Positions 2,230 through 27,278 of a stretch of DNA of 43,538 nt are shown here, piece by piece; positions within the stretch are counted from its first letter, which is position 1; each line of letters begins with the position of its first letter. The notes beneath the pieces are model-generated. The model made no database searches and was not told the DNA's origin. It saw nothing but the letters and a program-made list of their open reading frames with translations. The stretch is from an uncultured Eubacterium sp. (GTDB lineage Bacteria > Bacillota > Clostridia > Lachnospirales > Lachnospiraceae): the NCBI GenBank assembly GCA_947385775.1, contig CANDMI010000028.1:1-43538 (forward strand), in the 5' to 3' direction. Made by a program: the position numbers and the translations under genes.

Positions 2230-3327
2230 ATGAAATTAATGGATTTATTGGACTTTAACAATGTAAAAGAAGATCCAATTGAAAGACTGAAAACCTCAGA
2301 GTTTCCAATATTGGTTTATGGTGGTGGAAGTTTTGCAAGAGACATACTGCATTATCTAAAATGTAATAATATTAGTGTAGCAGGAATATTTGTAGATAGT
2401 GGAGGTTTTGTTTTATCTGATATTTTAGAGGATTACGGCATCACGCAAATTTCTATGAACGATATATGTTTTACATGTTATGTTGTTATGGGAATGGCGA
2501 ATTATTTTAAAGGGAGGATGTTGGAAAACAGTTATGTAAAAGAGGTATTTTACCTTCCGTTTTATCCTTATGGGGACAAAGGCGCTTTTCATAGAGAAGA
2601 CATTGAAAAACACCAGGAAGTTTATCAATCGACGTACGAACTTCTTGCGGATGATCTGTCAAAAAGATGTATGGTTTCGTATATGAATTCAAGGATAAGA
2701 AATGATGCAAGCTGCGTATTTTCCTGTTATGAAAGGGAGCAAACGTATTTTGACAATTCAGTGTTTCGCGTAAACGAGGGTGAAAATTACATAGATGTTG
2801 GAGCATATACAGGAGATACAATACGACTTTTTTATAAAGCCTGTAATCAGAAACCGGGACAAATTTGGGCATTTGAAGGCGATCGTTCTTTAGAGCCTTC
2901 AATAAAGAAAACCATTTCGGATCTGGAGATTGAAGATACAACGAAACTTATCATGACAGGATTGTGGAGCGAAAAGAAAAAGCTGTTCTTTTTGAAATCA
3001 GACCATAACATTGAAGAAGGGACTATTACAAACTATGATACAGGACTGTCAATCGATGTTGATAGCGTGGATCATATTTTGCAAAACAAATTGAAGCGAG
3101 TGAATATCGTTAAGATAAATTTTCCAAATGCGGACGAGGTTTTAAAGGGGTGTAGAAAGATAATATCCAAGGATAAACCGAAGCTTGCAGTAGTTGTTGG
3201 GTTCTTTGACAAATTGATTTATGAGGCGCCTAGAATTGTTATGGAAGCAGAGAGTTCTTACAAAATATATTTTAGATATAATTCAGCAATGCCAGCGAAG
3301 CTTGTTATGTATGCTGTTTCGGTTTAG
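2230..3327 (+). CDS. Rossmann-module plus FkbM-type methyltransferase-like protein
   Basis: About 365 residues in two parts. The N-terminal part has a glycine-rich nucleotide-binding signature (ILVYGGGSFARDILHYL) followed by a strand ending in an acid (AGIFVDS), like PglD N-terminal domains. The C-terminal half is FkbM-like with SAM motif I in YIDVGAYTGDT and an acid in IWAFEGD. Oddly, the usual FkbM motif DVEG is replaced by NFPNAD, so catalytic activity is doubtful. A TTG at 2212 is in frame, but the ATG at 2230 follows an AGAGGGAG site with good spacing. The same two-part design recurs in the gene at 22345. The gene and its followers up to about 13.3 kb look richer in A and T than flanking parts of the operon, hinting at a separately acquired block. 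Confidence 0.72.
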   Translation: MKLMDLLDFNNVKEDPIERLKTSEFPILVYGGGSFARDILHYLKCNNISVAGIFVDSGGFVLSDILEDYGITQISMNDICFTCYVVMGMANYFKGRMLENSYVKEVFYLPFYPYGDKGAFHREDIEKHQEVYQSTYELLADDLSKRCMVSYMNSRIRNDASCVFSCYEREQTYFDNSVFRVNEGENYIDVGAYTGDTIRLFYKACNQKPGQIWAFEGDRSLEPSIKKTISDLEIEDTTKLIMTGLWSEKKKLFFLKSDHNIEEGTITNYDTGLSIDVDSVDHILQNKLKRVNIVKINFPNADEVLKGCRKIISKDKPKLAVVVGFFDKLIYEAPRIVMEAESSYKIYFRYNSAMPAKLVMYAVSV

Positions 3328-3366
3328 AATAGGTTTTAGAAAAACAGGATAATGGGAGTTGAAACT

Positions 3367-4434: not shown

Positions 4435-4484
4435 ACAGACGTTTATAGAATACTATAATTTTGCGTAATAGTTTGAGGCTAAAA

Positions 4485-5252
4485 ATGAATAAAAAAAGCT
4501 TAATGGCAGTAGCAGCAGGAGCGGTTATTGGAATCGGGATATATGGAGTCACGAAAAAGAAGCAGAAAGAAGCGGAGAGGGAGGGCAGCCACAGACCTTA
4601 TGGGCCATACGAGGCTGTAATGAAAAGGCCATTAGACATTATATTATCTGGAATAGCGTTGCTATTATTATCACCTGTACTTTTGGTGGCGGCAATACTG
4701 GTAAAGATTAAGCTCGGCTCTCCTGTCCTGTTTACGCAGGATAGGCCAGGTAAGATTGATTTGAAAACAGGAGAAGAGAAAATTTTTAAAATATATAAGT
4801 TTAGGTCAATGACTGATGAAAAAGACATTCATGGCAATCTGTTGCCAGATGGTCAGCGCCTTACTCCATTTGGTCGGCAGATTCGAGCCACATCAATAGA
4901 TGAACTTCCTGAATTGATCAATATTTTTCGCGGGGATATGAGTATCGTAGGGCCAAGGCCCCTTATTCCGCAATATATTCCTTTATACAGCAAGGAACAA
5001 AGGCATAGGGACGATGTCCTGCCTGGCCTTACCGGTTTAGCGCAAGCGCATGGCAGAAATGGAATAAGCTGGGATGAAAAATTTAAATATGATCTGGAAT
5101 ACGTAAATAAAATCACTTTTTTCGGTGATGCGCGGATTATTATGGAGACAGCGATTGAGGTTTTAACCAAAAAAGGGATTAATTCAAAGACGGCGCCAAC
5201 TATGGAGCCTTTTTTAGGTTGTGGAAAGACGGATGAAATGACGGATACATAG
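4485..5252 (+). CDS. Initiating sugar-1-phosphate transferase (PF02397 type)
   Basis: Membrane polyprenyl-phosphate sugar-1-phosphate transferase, about 255 residues, that would load the first sugar on undecaprenyl phosphate. Visible parts: the KRPLDIILSG start of the family's re-entrant helix, a hydrophobic stretch to about residue 80, the KIYKFRSM motif, the TSIDELPELINI motif and the MSIVGPRPL motif with the conserved GPRP. It has an extra N-terminal hydrophobic segment (about residues 3-25) before the core, which small PglC-type enzymes lack. A TTG at 4461 would lengthen the protein; the ATG at 4485 follows GAGG at 4475-4478 and is preferred. It marks the start of lipid-linked assembly. 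Confidence 0.9.
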   Translation: MNKKSLMAVAAGAVIGIGIYGVTKKKQKEAEREGSHRPYGPYEAVMKRPLDIILSGIALLLLSPVLLVAAILVKIKLGSPVLFTQDRPGKIDLKTGEEKIFKIYKFRSMTDEKDIHGNLLPDGQRLTPFGRQIRATSIDELPELINIFRGDMSIVGPRPLIPQYIPLYSKEQRHRDDVLPGLTGLAQAHGRNGISWDEKFKYDLEYVNKITFFGDARIIMETAIEVLTKKGINSKTAPTMEPFLGCGKTDEMTDT

Positions 5253-5337
5253 TCTGCTTATATGTTGTGATAACTTTTCATGATAGCGATGAAAAGCGTT
5301 GTTGATTAAAAAAGAATTATTCAAAGAGGAAGAATTT

Positions 5338-6492: not shown

Positions 6493-6549
6493 GATCGTTT
6501 TGATCAAACGGATTTAATCGCAGATATTTATAACATTGAGGTATTCTAT

Positions 6550-7653: not shown

Positions 7654-7727
7654 CACTGTGGCACATGCATTGAAATTAGAGGATAAGATATTTGTTCTAA
7701 ATGATGATAAAATGGAGTGATACAGAA

Positions 7728-8537: not shown

Positions 8538-8567
8538 ATTATTGGGGATCGTGTGGGAGGACAGGCT

Positions 8568-9620: not shown

Positions 9621-9706
9621 AAAAAGAGGATTTTTGCAGGTAAAACGGCAAATTGAAAAAGAGGATTTTTGCTGGCAAATGTCTAATAGGAAAAAGAGGA
9701 TTTTTA
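9601..9706 (+). repeat. Three imperfect 35-36 bp tandem repeats carrying ribosome sites
   Basis: Three head-to-tail units are visible: 9601-9636, 9637-9671 and 9672-9706. Each holds a version of CAGGTAAAA followed later by AAAAAGAGGATTTTT. The first unit overlaps the last codons of the upstream gene and the third supplies the AGAGGA ribosome site, seven bases before the ATG at 9708. The second unit differs little from the first; the third has diverged more in its first half. A 25-codon frame starting at TTG 9634 runs through the repeats and stops at TGA overlapping the next ATG. Confidence 0.85.
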
Positions 9707-9707
9707 G

Positions 9708-10730: not shown

Positions 10731-10741
10731 GAGAAAAAGGT

Positions 10742-11482
10742 ATGTTAAGGACATTGTATTCTTATCTTCCAGATTTTTTTAAAGGGATCTGGAGGGGACA
10801 AAAATTAGAAAAGTATCTATCATATGCAAATTTAAATATAGGTTTTATGTATGAGATTTCCAGCATGTTAAGATTTTTAAGTGGCAAAGAATCTTATTCT
10901 CAGTGTGGACAGGATTATTTTTTGTTTCAAATGATATTTCACGGAAAAAAGAGCGGTTTTTTTCTGGATATAGGTGGAAACGATCCCATTAATATGAATA
11001 ATACCTATATGTTTGAATTGGGGGGGTGGAATGGACTTGCGTTTGAACCACAAAATAGACTGGTAAGTCGGTGGAAGGATCAAAGAAATGTAGAATGTAT
11101 CAACATTGCTCTTGGTGATAAAGACAAGGATATTTATTTTAGGGAAGAAGGAACATTATCAAGGGTTGTGAAAAGTAAGAATGTCGCAACGCGAAAGGTT
11201 AAACAAAGAGCTTTGAAAAATGTCCTGGCAGAGCGGGGAATTAAAAAGATTGACTTTATCTCCATGGATGTAGAAGGATATGAGTTATCTGTATTAAAGG
11301 GCATTGATTTTAGAAGTGTAGAGATCGATGTGATTTTGCTTGAAGTGGAAGACGCAAAAATCAGACGTGCAAAAAAAGTAAGAGATTACTTAAAAAGCCA
11401 AAACTATATTATGTTAACAAGGTTAAATCAGGACGATATTTGGGCAAGAAAAGAATTCTTGCGAAAGAGAGAGATAAAATGA
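10742..11482 (+). CDS. FkbM-family SAM-dependent methyltransferase
   Basis: 246 residues with SQCGQDYFLF, SAM motif I in GFFLDIGGNDP, the acid in GLAFEPQ, and the catalytic-type motif ISMDVEGYELSVLKGIDF with intact DVEG. FkbM proteins O-methylate sugars or polyketides; here a glycan hydroxyl is the likely target. An AGGAG overlapping the previous stop serves the ATG. Unlike the FkbM genes at 2230 and 22345 it has no Rossmann module. A G7 tract (11020-11026) encodes ELGGW and is in frame, so the gene reads as ON if the tract varies. Confidence 0.85.
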   Translation: MLRTLYSYLPDFFKGIWRGQKLEKYLSYANLNIGFMYEISSMLRFLSGKESYSQCGQDYFLFQMIFHGKKSGFFLDIGGNDPINMNNTYMFELGGWNGLAFEPQNRLVSRWKDQRNVECINIALGDKDKDIYFREEGTLSRVVKSKNVATRKVKQRALKNVLAERGIKKIDFISMDVEGYELSVLKGIDFRSVEIDVILLEVEDAKIRRAKKVRDYLKSQNYIMLTRLNQDDIWARKEFLRKREIK

Positions 11483-11522
11483 TACTGGAAAAAATGCACA
11501 GCATCATGATCAGAAGTGAGAT

Positions 11523-13358: not shown

Positions 13359-13391
13359 GGATTTTTATTTACAATACATGGAGGAGCGATT

Positions 13392-14219: not shown

Positions 14220-14235
14220 GCAAAAAAGGAACTAG

Positions 14236-15303
14236 ATGATTATGGAAAAGATAGAGCTTATTGTTTTTGATATAGACGGAGTCATAACGGATGGCTCCGT
14301 GATCGTCGATTCGAGAGGGACAGAGCAAAAACAGATTAACTTAAAAGACGTTGACGCCATATTTGAACTGCATAACAAAGGTTATAAGCTTGCGGCGATC
14401 ACAGGCGAAGACACCGAGATAGTCAATTATTTTGAGAAACGTTTTCCGTGGAAGTGTTTTTATCGCGGCAGTAAGACGAAGCAAGGCGCGATGGAGTTGA
14501 TAGAGAAAAGCTCTGGGATTAAACGTGAACATATTTGTTATGTGGGGGACGGAAAATACGACATAGAGCCATTGTCCTACGCCGGGCTTGGCGTTTGCCC
14601 GTCAGATGCGGTAGATAAGGCAAAGAGAGCCGCTGACGTGATTTTGCAAAAGAAAGGCGGCAAAGGCTGCATATGGGAACTTCTTCGCATACTGGAAGAT
14701 TATCATGCAAGGGATACAGCGTCAAACTATTTTTACAGAAGGCTGGAAGAGCATGCCGAGCTGTTTAAAAAAATGGCGGCGGATCAGGAATTAATGAATA
14801 CGGTTATGGAAGTCGCAGATAAGACGATTCAGGCTTTCCGCAATGGCGGGAGGCTTTTTTTATGCGGCAATGGGGGAAGCGCGGCGGACGCCCAGCATAT
14901 TGCGACGGAGTTTGTCAGCCGTTTTTATAAGGAGCGCCCAGGATTGAACGCTGAGGCGCTTACGGTGAACGCTTCTACGCTGACGGCGGTCGGAAACGAT
15001 TATAGTTTTGAGCGCGTGTTTTCCCGTCAGCTTGAGGCGAAAGCAAAGCCAGGGGATATTGTGATCGGCATATCCACAAGCGGACGCAGCAAGGATGTGT
15101 TAGAGGCGCTTCGGTATGCCGGCCAGCGGGATATTACCACCGTATTGCTGACAGGAAATTATCACATACCTGACGAAGACGCTGTGGGTGAATATGTGAT
15201 CCGTGTGCCGGCAAGAATTACGCCGCGGATACAGGAAGCGCATATTTTTATTGGGCATGTGATCGCGGAATATGTGGAATGGAGCATGTTCTGCAACGAT
15301 TGA
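14236..15303 (+). CDS. Fused KdsC-like HAD phosphatase and GmhA-like SIS isomerase
   Basis: 355 residues in one frame. Residues 1-150 are a C0-type HAD phosphatase like KdsC: nucleophile motif VFDIDGVITDG, AAITGED, a Lys in FYRGSKTKQGA and YVGDGKYDIEPL. Residues 160-355 are a GmhA-like SIS domain: GRLFLCGNGGSAADAQHIATE, TVNASTLTAVGNDYSF, IGISTSGRSKDVLEAL and QEAHIFIGHVIAEYVE. The domains would respectively dephosphorylate a ulosonic-acid phosphate and isomerise a ketose phosphate such as sedoheptulose 7-phosphate. With the NeuB-like enzyme just upstream this forms a compact isomerase-synthase-phosphatase set. A second, separate GmhA lies at 29109. The fusion is unusual to my knowledge. Confidence 0.85.
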   Translation: MIMEKIELIVFDIDGVITDGSVIVDSRGTEQKQINLKDVDAIFELHNKGYKLAAITGEDTEIVNYFEKRFPWKCFYRGSKTKQGAMELIEKSSGIKREHICYVGDGKYDIEPLSYAGLGVCPSDAVDKAKRAADVILQKKGGKGCIWELLRILEDYHARDTASNYFYRRLEEHAELFKKMAADQELMNTVMEVADKTIQAFRNGGRLFLCGNGGSAADAQHIATEFVSRFYKERPGLNAEALTVNASTLTAVGNDYSFERVFSRQLEAKAKPGDIVIGISTSGRSKDVLEALRYAGQRDITTVLLTGNYHIPDEDAVGEYVIRVPARITPRIQEAHIFIGHVIAEYVEWSMFCND

Positions 15304-15321
15304 TGGCTGGGAGGAATTTAG

Positions 15322-17115
15322 ATGAAGCTTTCGGATTATGTGTTTGACTTTTTAAAACGGAAAGGCGTACAGTGCGTGTTTATGCTGCCTGGAGGTGGGG
15401 CCATGCACTTAGTGGATTCGCTTGGAGCGTCAGGGATTGGATATGTGCCATTTTTACATGAACAAGGAGCTGCGGTCGCGGCAGAGGCTTATGCCCAGCA
15501 TACCAATACGCCGGGAGTTTGTCTAGTCACGTCCGGGCCTGGGGCGACGAACGCGATCACGGCAGTTACGGCGGGATGGATCGACTCCACTCCGATGTTT
15601 GTCATTTCCGGTCAGGCTAAGCGGTCTGACCTTGTGGGAGACAAAGGCATAAGGCAATCAGGTTCCCAGGAAGCGCCGACGGTTTCTATGGTCACGCCAA
15701 TCACCAAGTATGCAGAGCTGGTTTTGAAGCCGGAAAAAATCAGATACCATTTGGAAAAGGCGTGGCATGAAGCCGTCAGCGGAAGGCCCGGCCCTGTATG
15801 GCTGGACATACCCCTCGACGTGCAGGGAGTGTGTATAGATGAAGATAATTTAGCGGGATATGAGCCAGAGGAAATGAAAGTTTCGGATCTTTCAGGCTTT
15901 ATTGAAAATGCAGTCCACCTTATCATGACTGCAAAAAAGCCCTTAATACTCGCAGGAAACGGCGTGAAGCTTTCAAATGCCGCGGATGAATTTTTGTCGC
16001 TGGCTGACGACCTTGGAATTCCAGTTCAGACCACATGGAAAACAGCGGATCTGTTAGCGGAGGATCATCCTTTGTATGTTGGGCATCCCGGCATTATGGG
16101 GGATCGGGGGGCGAATCAGATTATTCAGGAATCGGACTTGCTGTTATCCATAGGCGCAAGACTTGACGCAAGCGTAACGGCATATCATGAGGAGCATTTC
16201 GCGTATCATGCGAAAAAGATCATTGTAGACATTGACCCGAATGAATTGAAACGGATGAACGTGCCGAATGCGGTAAAAGCGGAATCGGATGCGGGAGCGT
16301 TTATCAGAAAGCTGCATCGTTCATGGAAAGCCTTAGAAGAGTCTGACAGAAAAAGGAATATAGAAAAGCTGACAGAATGGTTAAGTTACTGCAAGGAAAA
16401 AAGAAAGGCTTATCCGGTTGTCACGTCCAGACACTCGGAAGCGGCGGGACGCGTCTGCGCATATCATTTCATCGATGTTTTATGTGAATATTTGCGGGAG
16501 GATGACGTCATTGTGCCGGAGAGTTCCGGCGGGGCGGGAGAGATCACGTATCAGGCGTTTCGGATCAAAAAAGGCCAAAAGATGAAAAATGCGGCGGGAC
16601 TTGGAGCCATGGGGTTTGGTCTGCCTTATGCGATTGGCTCGTGCATAGCCAATGGCGGCAGGAGAACCGTTTTGATCAATGGGGACGGCGCGTTTCAGCT
16701 GAACATCCAGGAGCTGGAGACGGCGCGCAGGCTGAATCTGCCAATAAAAATATTCGTGTGGTGCAATGAGGGATACGCCAGTATCCGCGCTATGCAAAGA
16801 AATAACTTTGAAGGGCGCTTTGTTGCAAGCGATGAGCGCAGCGGACTGACATTGCCGGATATAGAAAAGGTCGCTTATGCGTATGGGTTTAAGGTGCTCC
16901 GCATCAAAGACAATTCTAAGGTAAGGGAAAAAATAAGGGAAATATTGTCGGACGACCAGCCATGCGTATGCAGAGTGGACGTGGATGAAAATGAAACGGT
17001 TTCCCCGAGGGTGATGGCGCATGTGGCAAAAGACGGCAGCATAACATCGGGGCTGCTTGAGGATATGTGGCCTGCTTTGGCGGATAAGGAGCTAAGTAGT
17101 GGCGAATCGCGATGA
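15322..17115 (+). CDS. Acetolactate-synthase-like thiamine diphosphate enzyme
   Basis: 597 residues with all three domains of the acetolactate synthase large-subunit family: the PYR domain with catalytic Glu in FLHEQGAAVAAEAYA, a middle domain with IGARLDASVTAY where ALS binds FAD, and a PP domain with GDGAFQLNIQELETAR and Asn of WCNEGYASI for Mg-ThDP. No small regulatory subunit (ilvN) follows, and the neighbours are sugar genes, so branched amino acid synthesis is unlikely. A relative, YerE, adds a two-carbon branch to CDP-3,6-dideoxy-4-keto sugars; the CDP-sugar genes at 30617-33961 make that role possible here. Another role, coupled to the NeuB-like product, is equally open. GGGAGG precedes the ATG. 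Confidence 0.82.
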   Translation: MKLSDYVFDFLKRKGVQCVFMLPGGGAMHLVDSLGASGIGYVPFLHEQGAAVAAEAYAQHTNTPGVCLVTSGPGATNAITAVTAGWIDSTPMFVISGQAKRSDLVGDKGIRQSGSQEAPTVSMVTPITKYAELVLKPEKIRYHLEKAWHEAVSGRPGPVWLDIPLDVQGVCIDEDNLAGYEPEEMKVSDLSGFIENAVHLIMTAKKPLILAGNGVKLSNAADEFLSLADDLGIPVQTTWKTADLLAEDHPLYVGHPGIMGDRGANQIIQESDLLLSIGARLDASVTAYHEEHFAYHAKKIIVDIDPNELKRMNVPNAVKAESDAGAFIRKLHRSWKALEESDRKRNIEKLTEWLSYCKEKRKAYPVVTSRHSEAAGRVCAYHFIDVLCEYLREDDVIVPESSGGAGEITYQAFRIKKGQKMKNAAGLGAMGFGLPYAIGSCIANGGRRTVLINGDGAFQLNIQELETARRLNLPIKIFVWCNEGYASIRAMQRNNFEGRFVASDERSGLTLPDIEKVAYAYGFKVLRIKDNSKVREKIREILSDDQPCVCRVDVDENETVSPRVMAHVAKDGSITSGLLEDMWPALADKELSSGESR

Positions 17116-17140
17116 AAACCTGGGATAGGAGAAATGGAGT

Positions 17141-18027
17141 ATGATATACGGCACAAAGGATTATAGAAAACAGGTGTTTAAGCGTATTTTAGAAGTTTCA
17201 AAGGATAAGGGGATGTACGTCGTATATGCCGCAACGGTAGGAAGCGTTTCACAAGGCATTTCAACATATGACTCAGACTACGATGTAAAATGTTTGTATG
17301 TGCCTAGTGTGGGGGGGTAATCCAAGATTTTCATAACGAAGACGCGATCCGTTACAGAAAGTTTTATAAGGATGTTGCATATAATTGCATCGCGTTTTGG
17401 GAATTACATGCTTTTTTTAATTTTCTGGCAGAGCCTTATATTGATTCGGGAAAGAAATATGACCTGTTTCATAACGTGTTGTGGTTGATGATGACGCCTT
17501 ATGCATGGGATCCCCTCGGTTTACAGGGAAAGCTCTATCCTTTTATCTGTGATTGTGTCGATATGCGCAACGAACTATTATATTACCGCCTGAAAATCAT
17601 GCGACTGATGAATGGCGAGGTTACATTTAAACATATTATCCGGTTGCTGCATAGCTTTCTTTGCATTGAATGGATTGAAGAAAAAGGGACGTTGCCGCCG
17701 GTGAATATCTTCGCAATGGCGCTATGGAAGAACAAAGATATGGAAATGGCGTTTTTTAATATACTTGATGAATATAAAAAAGTAAATGTCACGCATGCGG
17801 ATATGTCCAGGAAGAATGAGTATAAATTTTTGATGGACGCTATAAGAAGCAGGCTAGAAACGATGGAAAATGATAAAAATTATTACCGGGAGTATCAGTG
17901 GGAAAAAATTCAGCAAAACAAAGAGATAGTGAAAAGAATAAACAAAGTGGTTTTTATGTCGATGGACAGTGCGCCGCAGATTAAAGGGGAAAAGCATATA
18001 AAATGGAACGATTTGATTGCCATGTAA
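17141..18027 (+). pseudogene. RlaP-like nucleotidyltransferase, frame broken at a G7 tract (possibly phase-variable OFF)
   Basis: From ATG 17141 the frame encodes 59 residues with the polymerase-beta type nucleotidyltransferase motif GSVSQGISTYDSDYDVK, then stops at TAA 17318 directly after G7 (17311-17317). Adding one G restores a continuous frame through FWELHAFFNFLAEP and on to the stop at 18027, giving about 295 residues. The C-terminal part alone is open from 17476. The motif and the IAFWEL segment resemble RlaP/YcgL (PF10127). A related intact protein is at 23473. Either the gene is switched off by slippage, or it is a pseudogene, or the tract is miscounted in the assembly. GGAG precedes the ATG. 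Confidence 0.75.
17311..17317 (+). repeat. Poly-G tract (G7) at a frame break
   Basis: Seven G lie between the CDS part with the nucleotidyltransferase motif and an immediate TAA. Eight G would keep the frame open for about 235 more codons. Other exact G7 runs on this strand are at 11020, 20035, 21881, 23273 and 35178; the one at 35178 behaves the same way. Confidence 0.7.
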
Positions 18028-18065
18028 AGGTATGTTAAGCGCTGGGGTGTACGGAGAAACATGCT

Positions 18066-19454
18066 ATGGAGAAACGAAAAAATTATTATACATTCAAAAA
18101 AGAAAGCAAAGTGGCGTTATATGGGGCCGCCACCATAGGCCATATCTTAAACTTAAGGCTGCAAAAACAGGGAATTGACATTATCGGCTTTATTGATAAA
18201 CGTGCGGAGGAGCTTGTCGCATTTGATGGGAAGCCCGTATATGCGGTTGATAACCCAAAAATCCCGCGGGATGACGTAATCATAATAATTGCGGTGAAAA
18301 ATGTTTTTGAGCATTCAAGGATTGCGGAAATACTGCATCAGGCAGGATACAGCAAGATCATATACAGACCTTATAATGTTTTGGATGGAGGTGGCGCTGC
18401 GGATGAGAGGCGGCTGTATGATGTATACACCTTGCTCACGGAAGGGGAGGGCGATCAGGATTTTATAGAGGGGATTCCAACGTATGCAGTTGAAAAACCG
18501 GTTCTTAAAAATGAAGCAATAATTTACCAAGATAAGGAATGGAATTTTGTGCGGCTGCCTTTTACGATTTTGCATACGGACAGGGCAAGGGATGGGATGT
18601 CCCTGCCGATTTCTTTTTTATGGCCGCATGTGAGTTTTGCCCGATATGCCCTTTCGATGCCTAAAGGAAGCGCGGAAGAATTACTTGGTTATTGTATGGC
18701 GGCTGGAAAAGAGATCGCGCAGATAGAGCCAACGGAGGCTTGGAAAGAAAATGTGATAAGAAGTCAGAGCGAAGTGTTTCTTAGGATGAATTATATGTAT
18801 AATCTTCATCCTGATTTTTTTATACAAAATGCTCCGGTTGTAAAATGGAATGAAGAAAGAAAGCTATTCAATCTGAACAGCGGAAAACATCGGGCTGTAT
18901 TTCAGTATGTGAAGGGACTGGATTATATTCCCGTAAAGATGAGCAGGCAAGATTATGATCAGTGGACACAAAGATACGATCAATTAAGTCGAAGCAACGC
19001 AAAAAACAATGGGGCGTGTGAAGAATTGGATCGTCTGTTGAAAAATGAAAGAGGGATACCTGTGGAGCTGCCGGAATTGTATGGCTGCTCTTGTCTTGGA
19101 GGGCAAAAATGGTTTGCTGTGGTCAGAAAGCTTTCCGACGTGATCGCGGGAAAGCATTACAAGAAAATCCAAAAGGAAGGCATCTATTCTTGGCGCATCA
19201 CAGTAGATATGGAAGATGATGGCTTTGTATCAAGATTTCTGCAAAGGTGCGGATTTGAAGTTGAAAGAAAAAAAGAAACAAAAAATAGCGTTTTGCTTGA
19301 CAAGATCCTGCCTGCGCCGGAGGGGATTTATCCATCTAAAGATAAACACAGCATATATATTTATGAAAGGGCTGACGGGACAATGGTATATGCAGAGGAC
19401 GGGATAGCGAGGGATATACAGGAGATGGAAAGAATTTGCGCGTGTTGCAGATAA
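18066..19454 (+). CDS. Unknown two-part protein: Rossmann module plus GxHR domain
   Basis: 462 residues; I do not recognise the full family. Residues 12-60 have VALYGAATIGHILNLRLQKQ followed by IIGFIDKRAEE, a PglD-like nucleotide-binding fold shared with six other proteins here. A central segment has VVKWNEERKLFNLNSGKHRA then IPVKMSRQDYDQW; the same pattern (WN, FN, DGxHR, DY) recurs in the gene at 20889, so the two are paralogs. The GxHR with its preceding strand recalls the ParB/sulfiredoxin fold, whose members include small-molecule kinases, but this is only a hint. A possible frameshift near the 3' end is noted separately. Confidence 0.6.
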   Translation: MEKRKNYYTFKKESKVALYGAATIGHILNLRLQKQGIDIIGFIDKRAEELVAFDGKPVYAVDNPKIPRDDVIIIIAVKNVFEHSRIAEILHQAGYSKIIYRPYNVLDGGGAADERRLYDVYTLLTEGEGDQDFIEGIPTYAVEKPVLKNEAIIYQDKEWNFVRLPFTILHTDRARDGMSLPISFLWPHVSFARYALSMPKGSAEELLGYCMAAGKEIAQIEPTEAWKENVIRSQSEVFLRMNYMYNLHPDFFIQNAPVVKWNEERKLFNLNSGKHRAVFQYVKGLDYIPVKMSRQDYDQWTQRYDQLSRSNAKNNGACEELDRLLKNERGIPVELPELYGCSCLGGQKWFAVVRKLSDVIAGKHYKKIQKEGIYSWRITVDMEDDGFVSRFLQRCGFEVERKKETKNSVLLDKILPAPEGIYPSKDKHSIYIYERADGTMVYAEDGIARDIQEMERICACCR

Positions 19455-19546
19455 TGTGTCTGAAATGCAGAATACTTCTGTGAAGCGGGCGCTTGGATCA
19501 AGAACGGTGGATAAGTTTGCAATAAAGGAAGGGCGGAAAAGGTAAA

Positions 19547-20884
19547 ATGATTCTATTTCAGGGTACTTTGGATGGATTTTTGCATATGGCAGACAAAGAA
19601 AACCGACATGTCGTATGTTTTGGGGCGGGTGATATGGGGACAGACGCGTTGTATGATGAGGGGCTGGCGCATATGGTCTCCTATTTTGTGGATAACGATA
19701 TGAGCAAGCAAAAACGTTTGATCCCATATGGCGGCAGGCAGATTCCTGTATTTTCACCGGATAAATTAAAGGATGCAGGTAAGCTGGCAATCTTAATTAC
19801 GAGCGTTTATGACAGTGAGATCATAAGTCAGATTGACAGCTGGCCTGAATTGGTGGATGTCCCATATGCGGTTTTTCAAGATGTGCAGTTTGCCGCGGAG
19901 CCAGGGAGTGACGAATTTTTTCGACGCCGGATGTTACAGCAATGTTTGATAGAATATGAATCGGCGTTACGGAGGCGTAAAGTCGATCGAATGCAAATTT
20001 CTAAAATGCTGGAGCAGAAGCGTAAACAGATATTGGGGGGGTATGGAACGCTTATTGTTCCTGGCATAGATGTCACTTCCCATACACACTGTAATTTAAA
20101 GTGTGCAGGCTGCTCTCAGCTTCGGCCATTATTTTTGCATCCAAAAAATATTCCTGTTGAAAAAGTCATTAAGGATATGGAACTATTTTTTGAATCTGTA
20201 GATGAATGCATCCGTGTGACAGTTGGAGGAGAACCGTTTATTTATCCTGATATTTTAAAGATTCTTAAGTGGCTGCAAACTCAGGAAAAAGCATTCAGTG
20301 TGATCATGTTTACGAATGGGCTGGCCATGCCAGATGACGACTGTTTGTCTGTTATGAAAAATCCAAAATTCTGGATAGGCATAGCTGATTATGGAATGAT
20401 TCAGAGTATGAGTAAACTGGCTGAAAAATTAGAAGCGGCTGGCGTAAATTTTGACGTCAGGACAAACCAGGGATGGATCGATTGTGGTGGAGTAGATAAA
20501 CGGGGACGAACGGAAAAGGAGCTAAGTGAGAGTTATCTTCGATGCAACACGGGGTTGATCTGCAAGTCTATTTATAATGGGGCAATGTATTGCTGTAATC
20601 GTGCGGTCTTTGTGCATGCAATAGATTGTGGGTATGATTCAAAAAGAGATTATTTTTATTTAGATGATTTTACAATGGCCGAACGCAGAAAGAAGATTCG
20701 GGACATGTTCTGCATGACGAATATTGCGGATGCATGTGATTATTGTGACCAAGGGGAACGAAATATCAGGAAAATAGAAGCAGGCGTTCAGCTTGGAAAA
20801 GATTTGCAACGGTCGGATTACACATTGATACGCCGAGACGAATTGGAAAGTTTAAGAATTGTGCAAAAAAAGTGGAGAGAATAA
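19547..20884 (+). CDS. Radical SAM protein with N-terminal Rossmann module
   Basis: 445 residues. The N-terminal 130 residues hold VVCFGAGDMGTDALYDEG and YFVDNDMSKQ, the shared PglD-like module. The radical SAM core starts near residue 180 with the CX3CX2C cluster motif in THCNLKCAGCSQ, then VTVGGEPFIYPDILKIL and an NGLAMPDDD strand. Further cysteines near residues 340-365 (CNTGLICKS, YCCNRAV) and CDYCDQGE near 410 suggest extra iron-sulfur ligands of the SPASM/twitch kind. It probably performs radical chemistry on a sugar or an attached group; the substrate is unknown. A G7 tract (20035-20041) encodes LGGYG just before the core and is in frame. Confidence 0.78.
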   Translation: MILFQGTLDGFLHMADKENRHVVCFGAGDMGTDALYDEGLAHMVSYFVDNDMSKQKRLIPYGGRQIPVFSPDKLKDAGKLAILITSVYDSEIISQIDSWPELVDVPYAVFQDVQFAAEPGSDEFFRRRMLQQCLIEYESALRRRKVDRMQISKMLEQKRKQILGGYGTLIVPGIDVTSHTHCNLKCAGCSQLRPLFLHPKNIPVEKVIKDMELFFESVDECIRVTVGGEPFIYPDILKILKWLQTQEKAFSVIMFTNGLAMPDDDCLSVMKNPKFWIGIADYGMIQSMSKLAEKLEAAGVNFDVRTNQGWIDCGGVDKRGRTEKELSESYLRCNTGLICKSIYNGAMYCCNRAVFVHAIDCGYDSKRDYFYLDDFTMAERRKKIRDMFCMTNIADACDYCDQGERNIRKIEAGVQLGKDLQRSDYTLIRRDELESLRIVQKKWRE

Positions 20885-20888
20885 CAGA

Positions 20889-22283
20889 GTGAAGGAATTT
20901 TCACTAAATAAAAGTGATAAAATATGGATTTACGGATATTCAAGGATAGGAAAAAATATCTATAAGATTTTACAGAATTCAGGATATTGCGTTTGTGGAT
21001 ACTTAGACCGCCGGGCTTTGGAATTTGCAAATGAGCGGGTGGTTCAACCGGACAGAAAGTATGGCGATTGTGATGTTGTCATTATTTCTCTACAGTCTGT
21101 AATCAGCCAAATGGATGTAGCGGATGAATTATGGAAAAAAGGATGTCAGAAAATTATATTTGCAGCAGCGGATAGAAAGTATGATTTACAAAAAGCGCGT
21201 AAAGTCCGGTATGTATACGAGCGCCTGCTAAACGGTGACATTCTTTCAGAGGGCGTTTTGATACCGATGTACGAGGATATGCTTGTTAAAGAAAGTATGG
21301 ATGAGCCGTGGATTATTCGACGATACAAGGCGTATTTGACAATATGGTGCCCGGCAGAGCTTTTATACACACCGGCGGAGTCTATGATCGATGCGAAGAC
21401 ATATCAAAGGACGCAAGCTCTTGGCATAAAACATTGGGAGCTGGATGCGCCGCTTCTTGCGGCGCTGAACGATCCCAATGACATGGGAATTATCATACAA
21501 TATGCCATTTTACATAAAGGCGATCCAATTCAGCATATGGAAAATGTATCAAAGTTGTTTGAACGCGATATGTGGAAACATGAGATGCGGATTGTATCGC
21601 TTTGGGAGTGGGAATATTCAAGGGGATTGGACTATTTTATCGATGCGCCACCCAGATGCGTCTGGAACGGAAAGGGGTATTTTAATATTTTTGACGGCTG
21701 TCATAGGTCTGTTTTTTTGTTGCTTAAAGATATGGCTTTTCTTCCGATCAGCGTAAGCCATGATGATTATGGAAAATTTTTGGATTGGAGCAAAGAAGAG
21801 TTTTCCGCAGGCGCAGGGTATCTGCCAGCAGTCACGCACTATGAGAAATGGTGGGATAATCGGAATTATCCAAGGATTTTGGGGGGGTTGCTTCGATATA
21901 TTTATGATCATCGGTTGCAGGTGAATACGATTATAGATGCAATGGGTGGAAATGGATATTATTCGAAAGAGATTGCAAAATGGAAAGGCTGCAAGGTCAC
22001 TTTCGCAATGGATGGAAATGGTCAGATAAGGGAGAAAAACTGTGATCTTTTGTTGCTTGATATGGGCATGCTCCATAAAGCTTCCGTGTTGAAGTTGAAA
22101 GAGATTCATTGTCTGACGCTATTTATTAAAGTGGCGGATGAGGAATGGAAAAAAGAAAGGGATTTTTTTAATGATGAATGGAATTGTCAAAGCGTAATAT
22201 TTCAATGTTATGAATATGATACGCCTTATTGTTATATTATGATGCAGAAAAATGCTGATTGTTCTGTGGAGTCCGATCACTAA
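20889..22283 (+). CDS. Unknown protein: Rossmann module, GxHR domain, SAM-motif-like C terminus
   Basis: About 464 residues; a paralog of the gene at 18066. It starts with WIYGYSRIGKNIYKILQN and CGYLDRRALE (shared module). The middle has RCVWNGKGYFNIFDGCHRSV then LPISVSHDDYGKF, matching its paralog's pattern. The C-terminal 130 residues contain TIIDAMGGNGYYSKEIAKW, which looks like a SAM-binding motif I, then DLLLLDMGM, so a methyltransferase-like domain may be fused. GTG 20889 follows GGAGAG at 20874-20879 with good spacing; a TTG at 20859 would overlap the previous gene. G7 at 21881-21887 encodes LGG and is in frame. Confidence 0.6.
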   Translation: MKEFSLNKSDKIWIYGYSRIGKNIYKILQNSGYCVCGYLDRRALEFANERVVQPDRKYGDCDVVIISLQSVISQMDVADELWKKGCQKIIFAAADRKYDLQKARKVRYVYERLLNGDILSEGVLIPMYEDMLVKESMDEPWIIRRYKAYLTIWCPAELLYTPAESMIDAKTYQRTQALGIKHWELDAPLLAALNDPNDMGIIIQYAILHKGDPIQHMENVSKLFERDMWKHEMRIVSLWEWEYSRGLDYFIDAPPRCVWNGKGYFNIFDGCHRSVFLLLKDMAFLPISVSHDDYGKFLDWSKEEFSAGAGYLPAVTHYEKWWDNRNYPRILGGLLRYIYDHRLQVNTIIDAMGGNGYYSKEIAKWKGCKVTFAMDGNGQIREKNCDLLLLDMGMLHKASVLKLKEIHCLTLFIKVADEEWKKERDFFNDEWNCQSVIFQCYEYDTPYCYIMMQKNADCSVESDH

Positions 22284-22344
22284 ATTTTCAATAGCAGAAT
22301 ACGGGAGTGTGCCAAAATGATTTACGGAAAAAGGGAGTGTATAA

Positions 22345-23448
22345 TTGAAGATAGTAGATGAAATATTGTCAAAAACAGAGGAAATAACAGGATGTATGAT
22401 ACCTAACAGCGTTTTTAAGCAGTTGGAGGCAAACCGCTTTGTAATCTGGGGCACAGGAAAAGCAGGACGATATGCGGTTGAACAATGCGGACGAAAAGGA
22501 TTGTTCCCGATTGGCGTATGCGATAGTTTTCCTCATAAAAAAGGCGACTTTTTGATGGGGGTTCCCCTTTATTCTGGGAAAGAGATTCTACATAAATATC
22601 CAGGATGCACTGTGCTTGTGTCGTGCGATCGCAGATACGGCATTTCAAAACAATTGGATGAAGAAGGAGTTTCATATATTGTATGGGATAGCACAGATCT
22701 GTTTACAGGCAATTTTACTTATGGAATCGAAGCTAGAAATGAACTGGCTAAGAATAAAGATGCTGTACAAAATGTATACGAAGCGTTGTCTGATAGGAAA
22801 AGCAAAAAAATATATAGAAACAAGCTGGAATATATGATCACACTGGAGCCAGAGTTATTGAGCGGATTCTTCGAGGATAAAATATACTTTGGAAACGATG
22901 TGATCCCGTCTGTCAATTGCGATGCTGTTTTGGACTGTGGGGCTTATACGGGGGATACGCTAGATTCTTTTATAAAAAATGAAGCGTGCGTCTGTCAACA
23001 TTATTACGCATTTGAGCCGGATGTGGATAATAATCGAAAATTACAGGAATACGTAAAGTCAAACAGGCTGAAAAATGTAGAAATTAGAAATCTGGCCGTA
23101 TGGAGTGACAAAGTTACGTTGCAGTTTCGCAATGATTCGATGCCATCCAGCAGAATTGTGCAATCCGATGGTATTGAAATTCAGGCAAGTCGGATTGATG
23201 ACATGATACCGGAAAGCGAAAGCGTTGGCTTTATTAAGATGGATGTAGAGGGAGCGGAGATTCAGGCGCTTTGGGGGGGCAAGAATACGATACAAAAATA
23301 TCATCCGATGCTGGCTGTTTCAATTTATCATAATAAACATGATATGTGGGAAGTCCCATTGCTGTTGAAAAAGCTAAATCCAGGATACCGGCTGTATATC
23401 AGGCATCATACTTCGTTTTATCCTGATACGGTCTGTTATGCGATATAG
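22345..23448 (+). CDS. FkbM-type methyltransferase with N-terminal Rossmann module
   Basis: 367 residues, same design as the gene at 2230 but with an intact catalytic-type motif. The N-terminal module has FVIWGTGKAGRYAVEQCG and IGVCDSFPHK. The FkbM half has AVLDCGAYTGDTLDSF (SAM motif I), YYAFEPD, and GFIKMDVEGAEIQALWGG. TTG 22345 is the start: AGGGAG at 22332-22337 is well placed and no better ATG exists. G7 (23273-23279) falls exactly on the conserved LWGG codons after DVEG. It likely O-methylates a glycan component. Confidence 0.8.
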   Translation: MKIVDEILSKTEEITGCMIPNSVFKQLEANRFVIWGTGKAGRYAVEQCGRKGLFPIGVCDSFPHKKGDFLMGVPLYSGKEILHKYPGCTVLVSCDRRYGISKQLDEEGVSYIVWDSTDLFTGNFTYGIEARNELAKNKDAVQNVYEALSDRKSKKIYRNKLEYMITLEPELLSGFFEDKIYFGNDVIPSVNCDAVLDCGAYTGDTLDSFIKNEACVCQHYYAFEPDVDNNRKLQEYVKSNRLKNVEIRNLAVWSDKVTLQFRNDSMPSSRIVQSDGIEIQASRIDDMIPESESVGFIKMDVEGAEIQALWGGKNTIQKYHPMLAVSIYHNKHDMWEVPLLLKKLNPGYRLYIRHHTSFYPDTVCYAI

Positions 23449-23472
23449 GATATCAGGAAAGGAAAGTAGACT

Positions 23473-24435
23473 ATGAAACAGGAATATGAAATTGCTCTTT
23501 CAGAGAATATGAAAAAGCTTTATAGCATATTATCAGAAAACTATCACAAAATCGAAAAGAGGATCCATGCAAAAATACTTTTTGGAAGGGTTGGCGGAAG
23601 CGGTGCGCAGGGGTTGAAGAGTGAGAGTAGTGACGACGACCTTCATCTCTTTATAACAGGAGGGGAAGAACTGCGACAGAACGCGATTAGGGAAAGCGGT
23701 CTGCCTGACATACAGGGTGGGAATATATGTCCCTACGAATTTGAGTATCAGGGCAAGGTATTTGAAATAGATACAGATTTTATATTTTGGGATATTGTAA
23801 AGGAAAAAATCATACAGGAAAATAAGGTTGTAAAGCAATATCCAAGTGTATTATGTCGAGATGAAAGCGCTTGGAATGAGGACAAAAATTTATCAGCAAC
23901 GGTGAGGTACAGGAATGATTTTGGCTCATGGCTTTTTCAATTGTTCCTTTTAAGCGATTCGATCTGGCTTCCGAAGGATTTTGATGATCGGCAATTAAAT
24001 GATCTGTATAAACAAAGGAAAACGATAGATATAATGGACGCATTTTTCCTACGTGCATATGGAAATTACTGTAAGTTTTTAAAGGATCGAAAAGAAGTCT
24101 TGGTAAGAAAATATCTGTACACGATTCATCATCTGGAAACAATCATTTGGATTGCAGAAAACAGGACAAAGCCCCCGTTTTTATTTCAAAAGCTGGTTGA
24201 ACTGGCTGATCTCGATCAATCTGTTAAGGAGCGTATAAGGCATTATTATGATCTGAACAGCCGGTCGGATGTATATAAGACAAGATATAAAGAAAAAAGC
24301 AGCGCCCGGATTGACAGTTATATAGCAGAAAGATTGGATTATGCGAAAGAGCTTATGGAAAAGTATGATAAAGAAGAAAGATTTTCAAGCGTCATAGAAC
24401 GCAGTCAAACAAAGTCTTTGATCGTCAGGCCATAG
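23473..24435 (+). CDS. RlaP-like nucleotidyltransferase-fold protein
   Basis: 320 residues. Near residue 40 it has FGRVGGSGAQGLKSESSDDD, the GS...D-x-D pattern of polymerase-beta type nucleotidyltransferases, followed by DLHLFITG; FEIDTDFIFWDIV may supply the third acid. A helical C-terminal half follows (VRKYLYTIHHLETIIWIAEN), as in RlaP/YcgL (PF10127), a family mostly known from RNA-repair contexts. Here the neighbours are an FkbM protein and a GT32-like transferase, so nucleotidyl transfer to a sugar, lipid or protein is a reasonable but unproven idea. It is the intact relative of the broken gene at 17141. GGAAAGGAAAG precedes the ATG. Confidence 0.6.
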   Translation: MKQEYEIALSENMKKLYSILSENYHKIEKRIHAKILFGRVGGSGAQGLKSESSDDDLHLFITGGEELRQNAIRESGLPDIQGGNICPYEFEYQGKVFEIDTDFIFWDIVKEKIIQENKVVKQYPSVLCRDESAWNEDKNLSATVRYRNDFGSWLFQLFLLSDSIWLPKDFDDRQLNDLYKQRKTIDIMDAFFLRAYGNYCKFLKDRKEVLVRKYLYTIHHLETIIWIAENRTKPPFLFQKLVELADLDQSVKERIRHYYDLNSRSDVYKTRYKEKSSARIDSYIAERLDYAKELMEKYDKEERFSSVIERSQTKSLIVRP

Positions 24436-24456
24436 GAGTATAGAGGGTTTTTAAAT

Positions 24457-25566
24457 ATGGTTGTCAAAAATACTACAATAAAAGGTTTTGCAAATGCCCT
24501 TAAAGGTGACAGTTTTGTCTGCTTTGGGGCTTCTAAGATGGTACAGGAGTTTTGTGAATGGCATAATGAATATCATTTTGAAAAGAGGATTCGATATATC
24601 GGTGACAATGATTCTTCGAAATGGCGACAAAGTAAGACGATTGCAGGAACTGACATATTAATTGTCAGTCCAAAGGAATTTGTATCTAATATAGCTTCAG
24701 GCGAGATTATTTTGATCACCACAAGGTTTTATTACGAAATAATACAGCAGCTGGAAAATATAGAAGCGATAAAGGATAATGAATGTTATATATTTCCGCT
24801 ATTTGAGCTGGAGCATCCGGAGTTTGAAGTGACGAAGAGGTCATCTAAGCGATTGATACCAAAAAAAATACATTATTGCTGGTTTGGCGGCGGAAAAAAG
24901 CCGAAGCTAAATCAGGACTGTATTGACAGTTGGAAGAGACATTGCCCAGAATATGAAATTGTAGAGTGGAATAAAGACAATTGCGATATGGAGATCAACC
25001 CTTATGTAAGCGAAGCTTACCATCGCTGCCAGCAATGGGGAGCAATTTCAGATTATTTTTCTGTTAAGGCGTTATATGAAGAAGGCGGTGTATATTTTGA
25101 CACCGATGTGCAGCTGATTAAGAATATAGATGTTTTTTTACACCATCCCGCTTTTGCGTCGTTTGATTCTACGAATGGGATGGTTAATTTTGGCTCTGGC
25201 GCAGGTTCGATTCCTGGAAATTTAATCTTCAAAGAGATTCAGAATGAATATGAAGACCTGCATTTTTTGAATCCGGACGGTTCAAGAAATGATGCGGCAA
25301 ATTATATTTATCAGACAAAAATACTAAAAAGGTATGGATTGAAGCTGAATAATGCAAGGCAGGACTTGGAAAATATCAGTATCTTTCCATCTTCTTGCTT
25401 TTGCCCATATGATTTACGCTCTGGAAAGACGGAAATTACAAAGAACACTTATGGGATCCATCAGTTTGACGGGTCGTGGTGGGACGCTGACAGAAAAAAA
25501 GTGTTTGAACGGCAGCAGGGCTATAGTTTTAAGTTGTTAGAAGAAATCAAAGGAGGTCAGTCATGA
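24457..25566 (+). CDS. GT32-like glycosyltransferase with N-terminal Rossmann module
   Basis: 369 residues. The N-terminal 125 residues carry FVCFGASKMVQEFCEWHN and IRYIGDNDSSKW, the shared module. The catalytic half starts with LIPKKIHYCWFGGGKKP, a signature of the OCH1/capsule GT32 (Gly_transf_sug) enzymes, then WGAISDYFSVKALYEEGG and the metal-binding DXD in VYFDTDVQLIKNI. The late IHQFDGSWWD segment is also typical. Donor sugar is unknown. The stop overlaps the next start by four bases (ATGA), so the radical SAM gene downstream is probably translationally coupled. Confidence 0.82.
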   Translation: MVVKNTTIKGFANALKGDSFVCFGASKMVQEFCEWHNEYHFEKRIRYIGDNDSSKWRQSKTIAGTDILIVSPKEFVSNIASGEIILITTRFYYEIIQQLENIEAIKDNECYIFPLFELEHPEFEVTKRSSKRLIPKKIHYCWFGGGKKPKLNQDCIDSWKRHCPEYEIVEWNKDNCDMEINPYVSEAYHRCQQWGAISDYFSVKALYEEGGVYFDTDVQLIKNIDVFLHHPAFASFDSTNGMVNFGSGAGSIPGNLIFKEIQNEYEDLHFLNPDGSRNDAANYIYQTKILKRYGLKLNNARQDLENISIFPSSCFCPYDLRSGKTEITKNTYGIHQFDGSWWDADRKKVFERQQGYSFKLLEEIKGGQS

Positions 25567-27278
25567 ATGTTGCAAAAGTAAGGGATGCCATAAAAAGACG
25601 GATCGGAAAAGAAAAATTTGCGGCATATCTTGATGGAAGAGAAGGTGGGCAGATCTATCAGGATTTTCAATATATCCTTCATCTGGACTTTGCCGCTGTA
25701 ATAAGAAGCAGTGATGAACTTGACAGGGCTGGAGATTTACCAGTAATTTTTTTTACAAGCCACGCTAAATCCTGTAAGGAAATATTAAGAAAGAAGGGCA
25801 TTGCAGAAGAAAAGTTGATTGATCATGATGAACTGATTTCCTTATTTGACATCGATCCAGTAATTTTGGCAAAGGGCAGAAAAATAGCAATTTGGGGTGC
25901 GGGGAGCCTTAGCACGTTTGTCCATATGTATGACAAAATGGATGCGCTTGGAATAACCCCGGATTTTTATTTGGATAATGACTGCGCAAAGCACGGAGGG
26001 ACATATGATGGATTGCCGATCAAAGATTATGACGCATTAGACATATCGGAGAAAGAAAAACTGTTTATTGTAGTATGCAGCGCCTATTATCAGGAAATCG
26101 AAGAACAGCTTTTGGCAAAAGGGTTGGTCAAGGATAAAGATTTTGTATCATATATTTCTATTATCCGGAATGCAGCTTATATGATGCGGAAAACGCTTCA
26201 CGATAAAAAGGTAAATGGCCCAGTCTGCACGCTGCCTTTTGAAATGGCGAATATCCACCGAGAAGGGATTTATGTCTGTCCACCAGACTGGATCAATCAG
26301 CTGCCGATCGGGACAAGCACGCAAAATGATTTAAATGACGCTTGGAATTCAATTTCCGCAGAGATATTTAGGCTGTCAATTGAAAATGGGACATATAGTT
26401 TTTGTAATTTAGGTTTGTGCGGTCTGATGAATGGACAAACGGTTGAATATAAGGACAAAGGGGCACAGGATTGGGCTGAAAAATATAAAAAGCGCAAGTC
26501 GCCGTCAATGCTGGTGGTATCACATGACCATTCGTGTAATTTATGGTGCGAAAGTTGTCGAAAGTGTCGTCAGATTGCGGAAGGAGCAGAATTTGCGTAT
26601 GCCGAGAAGATTACAGAACAGTTGGAGAAGTCTGGCTGGCTGGATGAGAGTGAAAAATTATTGTTAGCAGGGGATGGAGAGGTGTTTTCCAGTCGCGTTT
26701 ATCAAAAAATTTTGTATGATCCGAAACGGACAAGGAAGTCTGTTTGTATCTTAAGCAATGGGAATTTGCTGGACAAGAAGAGATTGGATGAGCTGTTAAG
26801 TCGGTATAGCGAGCTTGACATAGAAATTTCAATTGATGCTGCGCGTAAAGATACGTATGAGGAATTAAGAAGAGGCGGAAACTGGAACAGGCTGATGGAT
26901 AATTTAAATGCGATCGGAGATTACCGGCAAAAGGGAAAGATCCGTTATTTTGGAATCCGGATGGTTGTGCAAAGCAAAAATATAGAAGAAATGCCTGAGT
27001 TTGTAGAACTGGGGAAATCTGTGCACGCGGATTTGGTGCGGTTTGCAAGAATCAGGAATTTTGGATCATATGCGAAAGAGCAGTTTCAGGAAATTTCCAT
27101 TACAACTGAAAAAAATTCCGAAGGGAAGTTAAAGCCGGAATATAAAGAGATTATGAAAGATCAAAGACTTCTGGATCCAATTGTGGGGCTTTATGATATG
27201 GAAAAACTCTTGAATACAAACAGAGATATTTCATTGAGGGAGATCAGTCAAAAATATCATAATTTGATTTATTTATAA
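25563..27278 (+). CDS. Radical SAM protein with internal Rossmann module and N-terminal cysteine-rich region
   Basis: 571 residues. A first 95-residue part of unknown kind is followed by the shared module (IAIWGAGSLSTFVHMYDK, DFYLDNDCAKH). Next is a SPASM-like stretch, PVCTLPFEMANIHREGIYVC, continuing to CNLGLCG near residue 285. The radical SAM core follows with CX3CX2C in SCNLWCESCRKC, LLAGDGEVF and SIDAARKDTYEELRRGG. Having the auxiliary-cluster-like region before the core instead of after it is unusual. GGAGGT overlaps the end of the upstream gene. Substrate unknown; the company of a GT32 transferase suggests action on a glycan or glycan-linked group. Confidence 0.75.
   Translation: MNVAKVRDAIKRRIGKEKFAAYLDGREGGQIYQDFQYILHLDFAAVIRSSDELDRAGDLPVIFFTSHAKSCKEILRKKGIAEEKLIDHDELISLFDIDPVILAKGRKIAIWGAGSLSTFVHMYDKMDALGITPDFYLDNDCAKHGGTYDGLPIKDYDALDISEKEKLFIVVCSAYYQEIEEQLLAKGLVKDKDFVSYISIIRNAAYMMRKTLHDKKVNGPVCTLPFEMANIHREGIYVCPPDWINQLPIGTSTQNDLNDAWNSISAEIFRLSIENGTYSFCNLGLCGLMNGQTVEYKDKGAQDWAEKYKKRKSPSMLVVSHDHSCNLWCESCRKCRQIAEGAEFAYAEKITEQLEKSGWLDESEKLLLAGDGEVFSSRVYQKILYDPKRTRKSVCILSNGNLLDKKRLDELLSRYSELDIEISIDAARKDTYEELRRGGNWNRLMDNLNAIGDYRQKGKIRYFGIRMVVQSKNIEEMPEFVELGKSVHADLVRFARIRNFGSYAKEQFQEISITTEKNSEGKLKPEYKEIMKDQRLLDPIVGLYDMEKLLNTNRDISLREISQKYHNLIYL

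Follow-up and report, generated by a model that had tools for sequence, protein, structure and literature searches.

Seven enzymes of different catalytic types, encoded in one stretch of 43,538 nucleotides from an uncultured Eubacterium sp. of the Lachnospiraceae (the window; contig C28, CANDMI010000028.1, of a genome of 3.98 Mb in 152 contigs), carry a small Rossmann module which, judged by sequence profiles, is one family of domains of about 110 residues; at least six of the seven have common ancestry, o3 being marginal, and by the same kind of comparison the module falls into a broad group of accessory domains which occur in Bacillota glycan loci. The original prediction had read seven glycine-rich motifs as marks of a shared, PglD-like module serving as a common tag, which would bring unrelated enzymes to one nucleotide sugar, one carrier-linked glycan or one scaffold. 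The motifs are real, and all seven sit inside open frames of the genes named for them, although the positions given were gene starts or near and the motif itself lies further in; the module of o23 starts only at about residue 90 of the protein. The modules are the following:

2251..2565, plus strand: Rossmann module of o3 (gene 2212-3327, FkbM methyltransferase, TIGR01444 just above cut-off); module E 0.042, the weakest of the seven
18066..18383, plus strand: Rossmann module of o17 (gene 18066-19454, GxHR domain and weakly methyltransferase-like tail); E 7.5e-15
19559..19897, plus strand: Rossmann module of o18 (gene 19547-20884, twitch-type radical SAM protein, SpeY/BtrN-like); E 3.9e-12
20865..21185, plus strand: Rossmann module of o19 (gene 20859-22283, GxHR domain and methyltransferase-like tail); E 6.4e-6
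22369..22707, plus strand: Rossmann module of o20 (gene 22345-23448, FkbM methyltransferase, 2.9e-22); E 5.1e-13
24460..24816, plus strand: Rossmann module of o22 (gene 24457-25566, GT32-type Gly_transf_sug, PF04488 6.8e-14); E 1.9e-8
25818..26177, plus strand: Rossmann module of o23 (gene 25563-27278, radical SAM protein related to W_rSAM_matur); E 8.7e-16

The module E-values derive from a profile built without the window and its genome, out of 32 modules taken from five further genomes (Z=5000); since an iteration that started from the window modules had brought these 32 together, the test is not wholly independent. Because the window modules are only 8–14% identical to the first module, a motif seen by eye proves nothing, and profiles were built. 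Single-sequence phmmer searches of a library of open reading frames (ORFs) link some of the modules of o17, o18, o19, o22 and o23 (m17, m18, m19, m22 and m23) directly, namely m17 with m19 (1.8e-7), m18 with m22 (1e-5) and m18 with m23 (1e-3); m23 also matches the C-terminal module of a GT2 protein of another genome (4.7e-10). When the search was iterated over ORFs from eleven further stretches as well as the window, it settled at 40 modules, and the final profile, in which the window modules are included, recovers all seven at E<1e-10 (o3 at 8e-11). The window-free profile finds six of them at 9e-16 to 6e-6, by which independent origins are rejected for these six, and o3 only at 0.042; the claim of one module in seven enzymes thus stands for six and is marginal for one. 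At E<10 the same profile gave no hit to 740 shuffled window proteins or to the SDR proteins o27, o30, o31 and o33 of the window. All seven window modules retain the first Gly of the loop and the Asp that follows strand 2; across 308 modules (of 318 rows, ten from L136 and L138 being left out as their contigs had seemingly been sampled already), the three Gly of the loop are conserved, in order, in 98%, 84% and 61% (the third being Ala in 19%), and the Asp in 82%.

AlphaFold2 models, covering the modules of o18 and o19, place both in the Rossmann fold. In o18 (mean pLDDT of the protein 92.2) the module is a high-confidence Rossmann fold, whose closest structural matches are C-terminal domains from C-methyltransferases that were solved with TDP-sugars; in o19 residues 11–100 have block means of 81–96, most of the rest being low, and the module takes a CoA-binding/Rex-like Rossmann fold. 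Against the sequences of the PDB, the 40-module profile (seven of them from the window) matches 3nkl, annotated as UDP-quinovosamine 4-dehydrogenase, at 3.4e-12, Rex at 3e-10, VioB at 1.3e-5, WbaP at 1.8e-5, D-mycarose 3-C-methyltransferase at 0.0015 and PglD at 0.013. The proposed likeness to PglD thus holds as a profile relationship among others, but PglD_N (PF17836) gives no match to any of the seven at E<=1, and the NeuD/PglB/VioB model gives weak matches to four (0.0034 to 0.24, far below cut-off). Modules elsewhere do pass the PglD_N cut-off (the RgpF protein of L097 with 27.3 bits, the TupA proteins of L122 and L095 with 24.4 and 24.0); three of the six PglD-type proteins of the window's genome score 4.8e-6, 2.9e-4 and 2e-3 with the window-free profile, like the weakest modules, and the other three are not found by it. 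The module family therefore grades into PglD_N, and PglD is, on these scores, one neighbour of the family among several.

In the NDP-sugar C-methyltransferases KijD1 and TcaB9 the corresponding domain (Methyltransf_14) comes after a zinc-binding Methyltransf_13 and a methyltransferase domain; the window-type module precedes or follows many other enzymes, and the Methyltransf_13 order occurs in none of the seven, although L111 holds an enzyme with the order Methyltransf_13, methyltransferase, C-terminal domain. Methyltransf_14 (PF08484) matches o18 partially (positions 57–144 of 160; 30.8 bits against a cut-off of 23.5) and none of the other six modules at E<=1. The cytoplasmic sensor domain of WbaP-type phosphoglycosyl transferases and PglF/CapD-type dehydratases is profile-related and likewise accessory to glycan enzymes, but in WbaP it lies after a four-helix membrane bundle and before the phosphoglycosyl transferase domain, whereas here soluble fusions or a single hydrophobic segment are found; Pfam and NCBIfam scans of the seven gave partners other than that bundle and that transferase domain. 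By the same scans the window proteins lack the hexapeptide acetyltransferase part which follows the profile-related N-terminal domain of PglD, NeuD and VioB, and the DNA-binding domain which accompanies the profile-related NAD(H)-sensing domain of Rex. C2185-like_N (PF22674), finally, matches modules of other loci below cut-off (1e-5 to 0.009) and one module of the window's own genome above it (29.4 bits against 27), but none of the seven at E<=1, and was not met with in 14 control genomes; by sequence it is perhaps the same domain as the module.

The survey comprised 52 pieces with 974,960 bases, that is, the window and 51 fetched stretches picked for module hits, several of them from one contig. 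It yielded 263 proteins with 264 modules, far more than the seven first noticed, placed N-terminally in 117, C-terminally in 107 and internally in 16 proteins, the other 23 being ORFs of less than 190 amino acids. At least one module protein occurs in 48 of the 52 pieces and at least three in 42, so that loci with three or more module genes, for which a survey had been suggested, are common, the choice of pieces for hits being borne in mind. The partner clusters include GT2 (54 proteins), radical SAM (23), FkbM (14), RgpF (10) and TupA (6), and with seven proteins each the o23-like radical SAM, GT32, cytidylyltransferase-containing, TOD1-like and WbsX clusters; further partners are GT4, GT8, GT10, GT11, HAD, TylF, DUF4422, CDP-glycerol transferase, B12-type radical SAM, C-methyltransferase and a hexapeptide protein. 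Most large clusters have the module at a fixed end, C-terminal in GT2 (52/54), RgpF (10/10) and WbsX (7/7), N-terminal in radical SAM (23/23), FkbM (14/14) and GT32 (7/7), unlike the o23-like cluster, where its position is not fixed. As to this cluster, the ~90 residues ahead of the o23 module (25563-25830) may be a degenerate first module, and the start of an o23-like protein elsewhere (L189:10756-12435) resembles, by eye, a Rossmann module at that place. Among the other fetched loci, a GT2 protein (L039:15529-17217) carries two tandem modules and possibly a third stretch, a protein with an aldo-keto reductase-like start (by eye) and a module at its end (L189:19095-20528) perhaps represents a further partner class, and in L038 and L040 flagellin-like genes (by eye) lie beside module genes.

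Relatives in which no module is detected occur for FkbM (2 of 17), WbsX (4 of 11), TupA (1 of 7), GT2 (30 of 86, two more being doubtful) and radical SAM (7 of 31, one more being doubtful); the 23 radical SAM proteins of L139–L163 show none either, and the Paenibacillus protein which shares the GxHR domain has no Rossmann match in Pfam. Since such relatives exist, the module is an add-on for several enzyme classes; for RgpF, GT32 and TOD1-like proteins in the same loci, none of 24 was without it. One of the module-free FkbM proteins provides a contrast within the window:

10742..11482, plus strand: o11, FkbM methyltransferase without module

Five or more matches at 1e-6 occur in at least 41 of 250 genomes of the same family (all at least 90% complete, the window's among the 41), and across the phylum in at least 10 of 249, eight of them outside the family; these tallies are lower bounds, as at most 18 candidates were scored per genome, and the genomes with five or more were tallied by hand. 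The count of genomes with any match (158 of 250) is inflated, because weak single hits are often, by length alone, Rex-sized (~210–235 amino acids) or CapD-sized (~615–655), and the counts of five or more are safer. In titles and abstracts of open PMC papers no description of the module on glycan enzymes was found, which is weak evidence of absence as most subscription papers lie outside this collection.

The notion of a common tag was put to a tree of 262 modules (FastTree; a short domain, branch support not considered), which are the survey set without two modules cut by a stretch end (L040 and L105) and without loci added later; the tests of partner class and of locus within class used the 168 rows with a named class (94 have none). 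Partner class requires 57 changes on the tree as compared to 105.0 ± 2.6 after shuffling, though more than the 11 needed for one fusion per class, and thus explains much of the branching. Locus requires 215 changes against 226.3 ± 3.1 in a free shuffle, fewer than in all 200 shuffles; with partner class held fixed, the figure is 140 against 143.5 ± 2.1 (range 138–150), and no effect stands out. The best relative with a different partner lies in the same locus for 23 of 262 modules (a set that still included the two cut ones), where 6.8 are expected, an excess which local duplication could explain. A tag that is specific to one locus, scaffold or carrier is therefore not supported, while the shared ancestry of at least six modules, their relation to PglD among other families and the frequency of loci with three or more module proteins are. 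As the tree follows class and the fingerprint is mostly kept, a ligand is favoured over a pure address tag. Taken literally, a single nucleotide sugar as the common target is improbable, since CDP-, GDP- and probably CMP-sugar routes are all encoded in the locus.

Building on the ancestry, the fold, the mostly kept nucleotide-binding fingerprint and the module-free homologues, all of which are observed, we infer ligand, pairing and regulation by analogy. The reading we favour, tentatively and at somewhat less than an even chance, is an accessory domain which, like the one in WbaP, dimerises and senses nucleotides. The module would pair with another copy and bind a nucleotide or nucleotide sugar, as the cytoplasmic domain of WbaP does; the attached enzyme would be turned up or down according to the sugar-nucleotide pool or its by-products, and the module would keep the enzyme dimeric. 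With one domain on enzymes for methylation, for radical-SAM oxidation, for glycosyl transfer and for activation, the decoration pathway as a whole might respond to a single signal. The occurrence of one kind of small Rossmann domain of the nucleotide-binding type on seven enzymes here, and on many other glycan enzymes in related bacteria, suggests a common control or assembly part. A study on WbaP describes its domain as making most of the dimer contacts; UMP, UDP and UTP stabilise the domain, whereas UDP-Gal has a destabilising effect, the enzyme is inhibited by UMP with an apparent IC50 of 4.1 uM, and a wider role in feedback is proposed by the authors (PMC10942596). For EpsZ, another report presents a model in which the response regulator EpsW aids the pairing of the corresponding domains (PMC12802240). 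The window's own phosphoglycosyl transferase has no sensor domain, and seven other enzymes of the locus carry a relative of it:

4461..5252, plus strand: initiating phosphoglycosyl transferase, without the WbaP-type N-terminal half (membrane bundle and sensor domain); TIGR03025 matches from position 247 of 445

Instead of sensing a nucleotide, the modules might serve as adaptors, pairing with one another and with membrane-anchored free modules, so that a multi-enzyme assembly forms at the inner membrane by the lipid-linked glycan. This possibility, which we consider unlikely though worth keeping in view, draws on the free-standing modules. Fifteen proteins of 155–171 amino acids consist of an N-terminal hydrophobic segment (called from a 17-residue hydropathy mean rather than by a membrane predictor), a linker and one module, twelve of them in survey loci and three in loci added later. 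In L137 and in L135/L136/L116, the gene directly upstream of an o18-like radical SAM gene encodes a shorter free-standing module without such a segment. WbsX proteins have a fused module in 8 of 14 cases; of the six without it two are cut by a stretch end, and three of the four complete ones (L101, L120 and L189) overlap a free-standing module gene, none being in view in L184. As L101 and L189 are alike, these are perhaps two independent cases; the pattern of fusion and fission hints that the module can act in trans. Among the best 40 listed cross-class relatives, eight of nine anchored modules have a WbsX module as their best match outside their own class (60–89 bits). However, two of the eight WbsX proteins with a fused module (L103 and L121) also adjoin a free-standing one, so the two forms are not mutually exclusive, and none of the 20 module matches in the window's genome has an open frame of 155–171 amino acids. 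A pure scaffold would also not need the nucleotide fingerprint, and scaffolding is not borne out by the class-fixed test of locus, in spite of the small effect in the free shuffle and the same-locus best relatives. A more far-reaching version, in which pairing modules would form a general docking code of Bacillota surface-glycan factories, joining many enzyme classes and anchored single modules into a membrane-bound assembly with a composition or activity governed by nucleotide sugars, seems to us improbable as a whole.

Substrate docking as in PglD, the module gripping the nucleotide part and presenting the sugar to the attached catalytic domain, we likewise hold to be rather doubtful. VioB and PglD are acetyltransferases acting on nucleotide sugars, and the module's relation to VioB and, weakly, to PglD would fit such a role, as would the closeness of the o18 module to a C-methyltransferase domain solved with TDP-sugars and the likeness of the o18 catalytic part to the radical SAM dehydrogenases SpeY and BtrN; yet the module is also found on glycosyltransferases with a donor site of their own, on WbsX, RgpF and a cytidylyltransferase-containing protein, some copies are free-standing, and the locus uses several nucleotide carriers. 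The least probable case, for which we see little chance, is that there is no common function at all: an old, easily captured Rossmann domain would have been kept for folding or solubility, with different ligands or none. Rossmann domains are among the most reused folds, and the very low identity among the seven, the degraded loops and the modules' largely staying with their partner class are consistent with this; free-standing copies, the mostly kept first Gly and Asp and a preference for glycan-type proteins argue against it. As to the last point, six matches outside the window in its own genome reach E<1e-10, and four of them are surface-glycan types, namely FkbM (C71), TupA and TOD1-like (both C1) and RgpF (C32); the other two are a weakly sulfotransferase-like protein (C1) and a DUF1796 protein.

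The matter bears on the ordered assembly of long, branched surface glycans and on the coordination of the many enzymes involved. Should a single accessory domain be common to many of the enzymes that decorate such glycans in gut Lachnospiraceae, the ligand and partners of that domain would provide one handle on the control of the pathway, with the free-standing, apparently membrane-anchored modules as a concrete type of protein to work with; it would also explain the scattered "NAD-binding", "PglD" and "methyltransferase C-terminal" matches of such enzymes. Were the sensing domain favoured above correct, the nucleotide sensing proposed for WbaP would extend from the first enzyme to the whole pathway.

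Concerning the catalytic partners in the window, Pfam and NCBIfam assign o3 and o20 to FkbM, o18 and o23 to radical SAM and o22 to Gly_transf_sug, in agreement with the FkbM, radical SAM and GT32-like parts named in the original prediction. The protein o18 has a CX3CX2C motif and, as in twitch radical SAM dehydrogenases, four more conserved cysteines that would serve an auxiliary cluster. In o17 and o19 the GxHR domain is followed by a methyltransferase-like tail, which is clearer in o19, where the region of methyltransferase motif I is kept, than in o17. A protein from a Paenibacillus plasmid shares the GxHR domain with both (o17 at 1e-9 in a two-sequence comparison), has a methyltransferase domain above the Pfam cut-off and sits among glycosyltransferase genes. 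The GxHR part itself has no clear Pfam match in either protein, o19 has no match in the PDB, and for o17 a search of 290 further genomes from the class found no relative at E<=1e-4; a GxHR motif occurs in ParB/sulfiredoxin-type folds, to which the domain may belong. Six of the seven thus fall among enzyme types that use SAM, although the link is weak for o17 and o19.

The locus is headed by the gene of an antiterminator, followed by about 33 ORFs which are all on the same strand:

131..655, plus strand: LoaP antiterminator at the head of the locus (NF033641, 147.1 bits, cut-off 125)

It further encodes an aminotransferase, glycosyltransferases and an ABC transporter (the transporter and some of the transferases being assigned by eye), and its sugar genes comprise a NeuB-like enzyme, hddA-, hddC- and gmhA-like genes, rfbF, rfbG and rfbH, gmd, and fcl-like and manC-like genes; it is thus a large surface-glycan locus supplying several nucleotide-sugar classes. 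One protein (14236-15303) combines KdsC-type phosphatase and GmhA-type isomerase parts, both below their family cut-offs. The adjoining gene (15322-17115) encodes an enzyme resembling acetolactate synthase, dependent on thiamine diphosphate and above the cut-off of none of 25 listed families, which shares the locus with rfbF, rfbG and rfbH (30617-33961) and has a similar protein in L138; this combination we take to be the gene set of yersiniose-like branched CDP-sugars. Two proteins (17476-18027 and 23473-24435) are related to RlaP, a pol-beta-type nucleotidyltransferase, the first by a weak match in its C-terminal half only, and this one looks truncated. Toward the end of the window a short ORF (40698-41024), which resembles by eye the start of UvrB and stops after 108 amino acids, is probably a decayed fragment.

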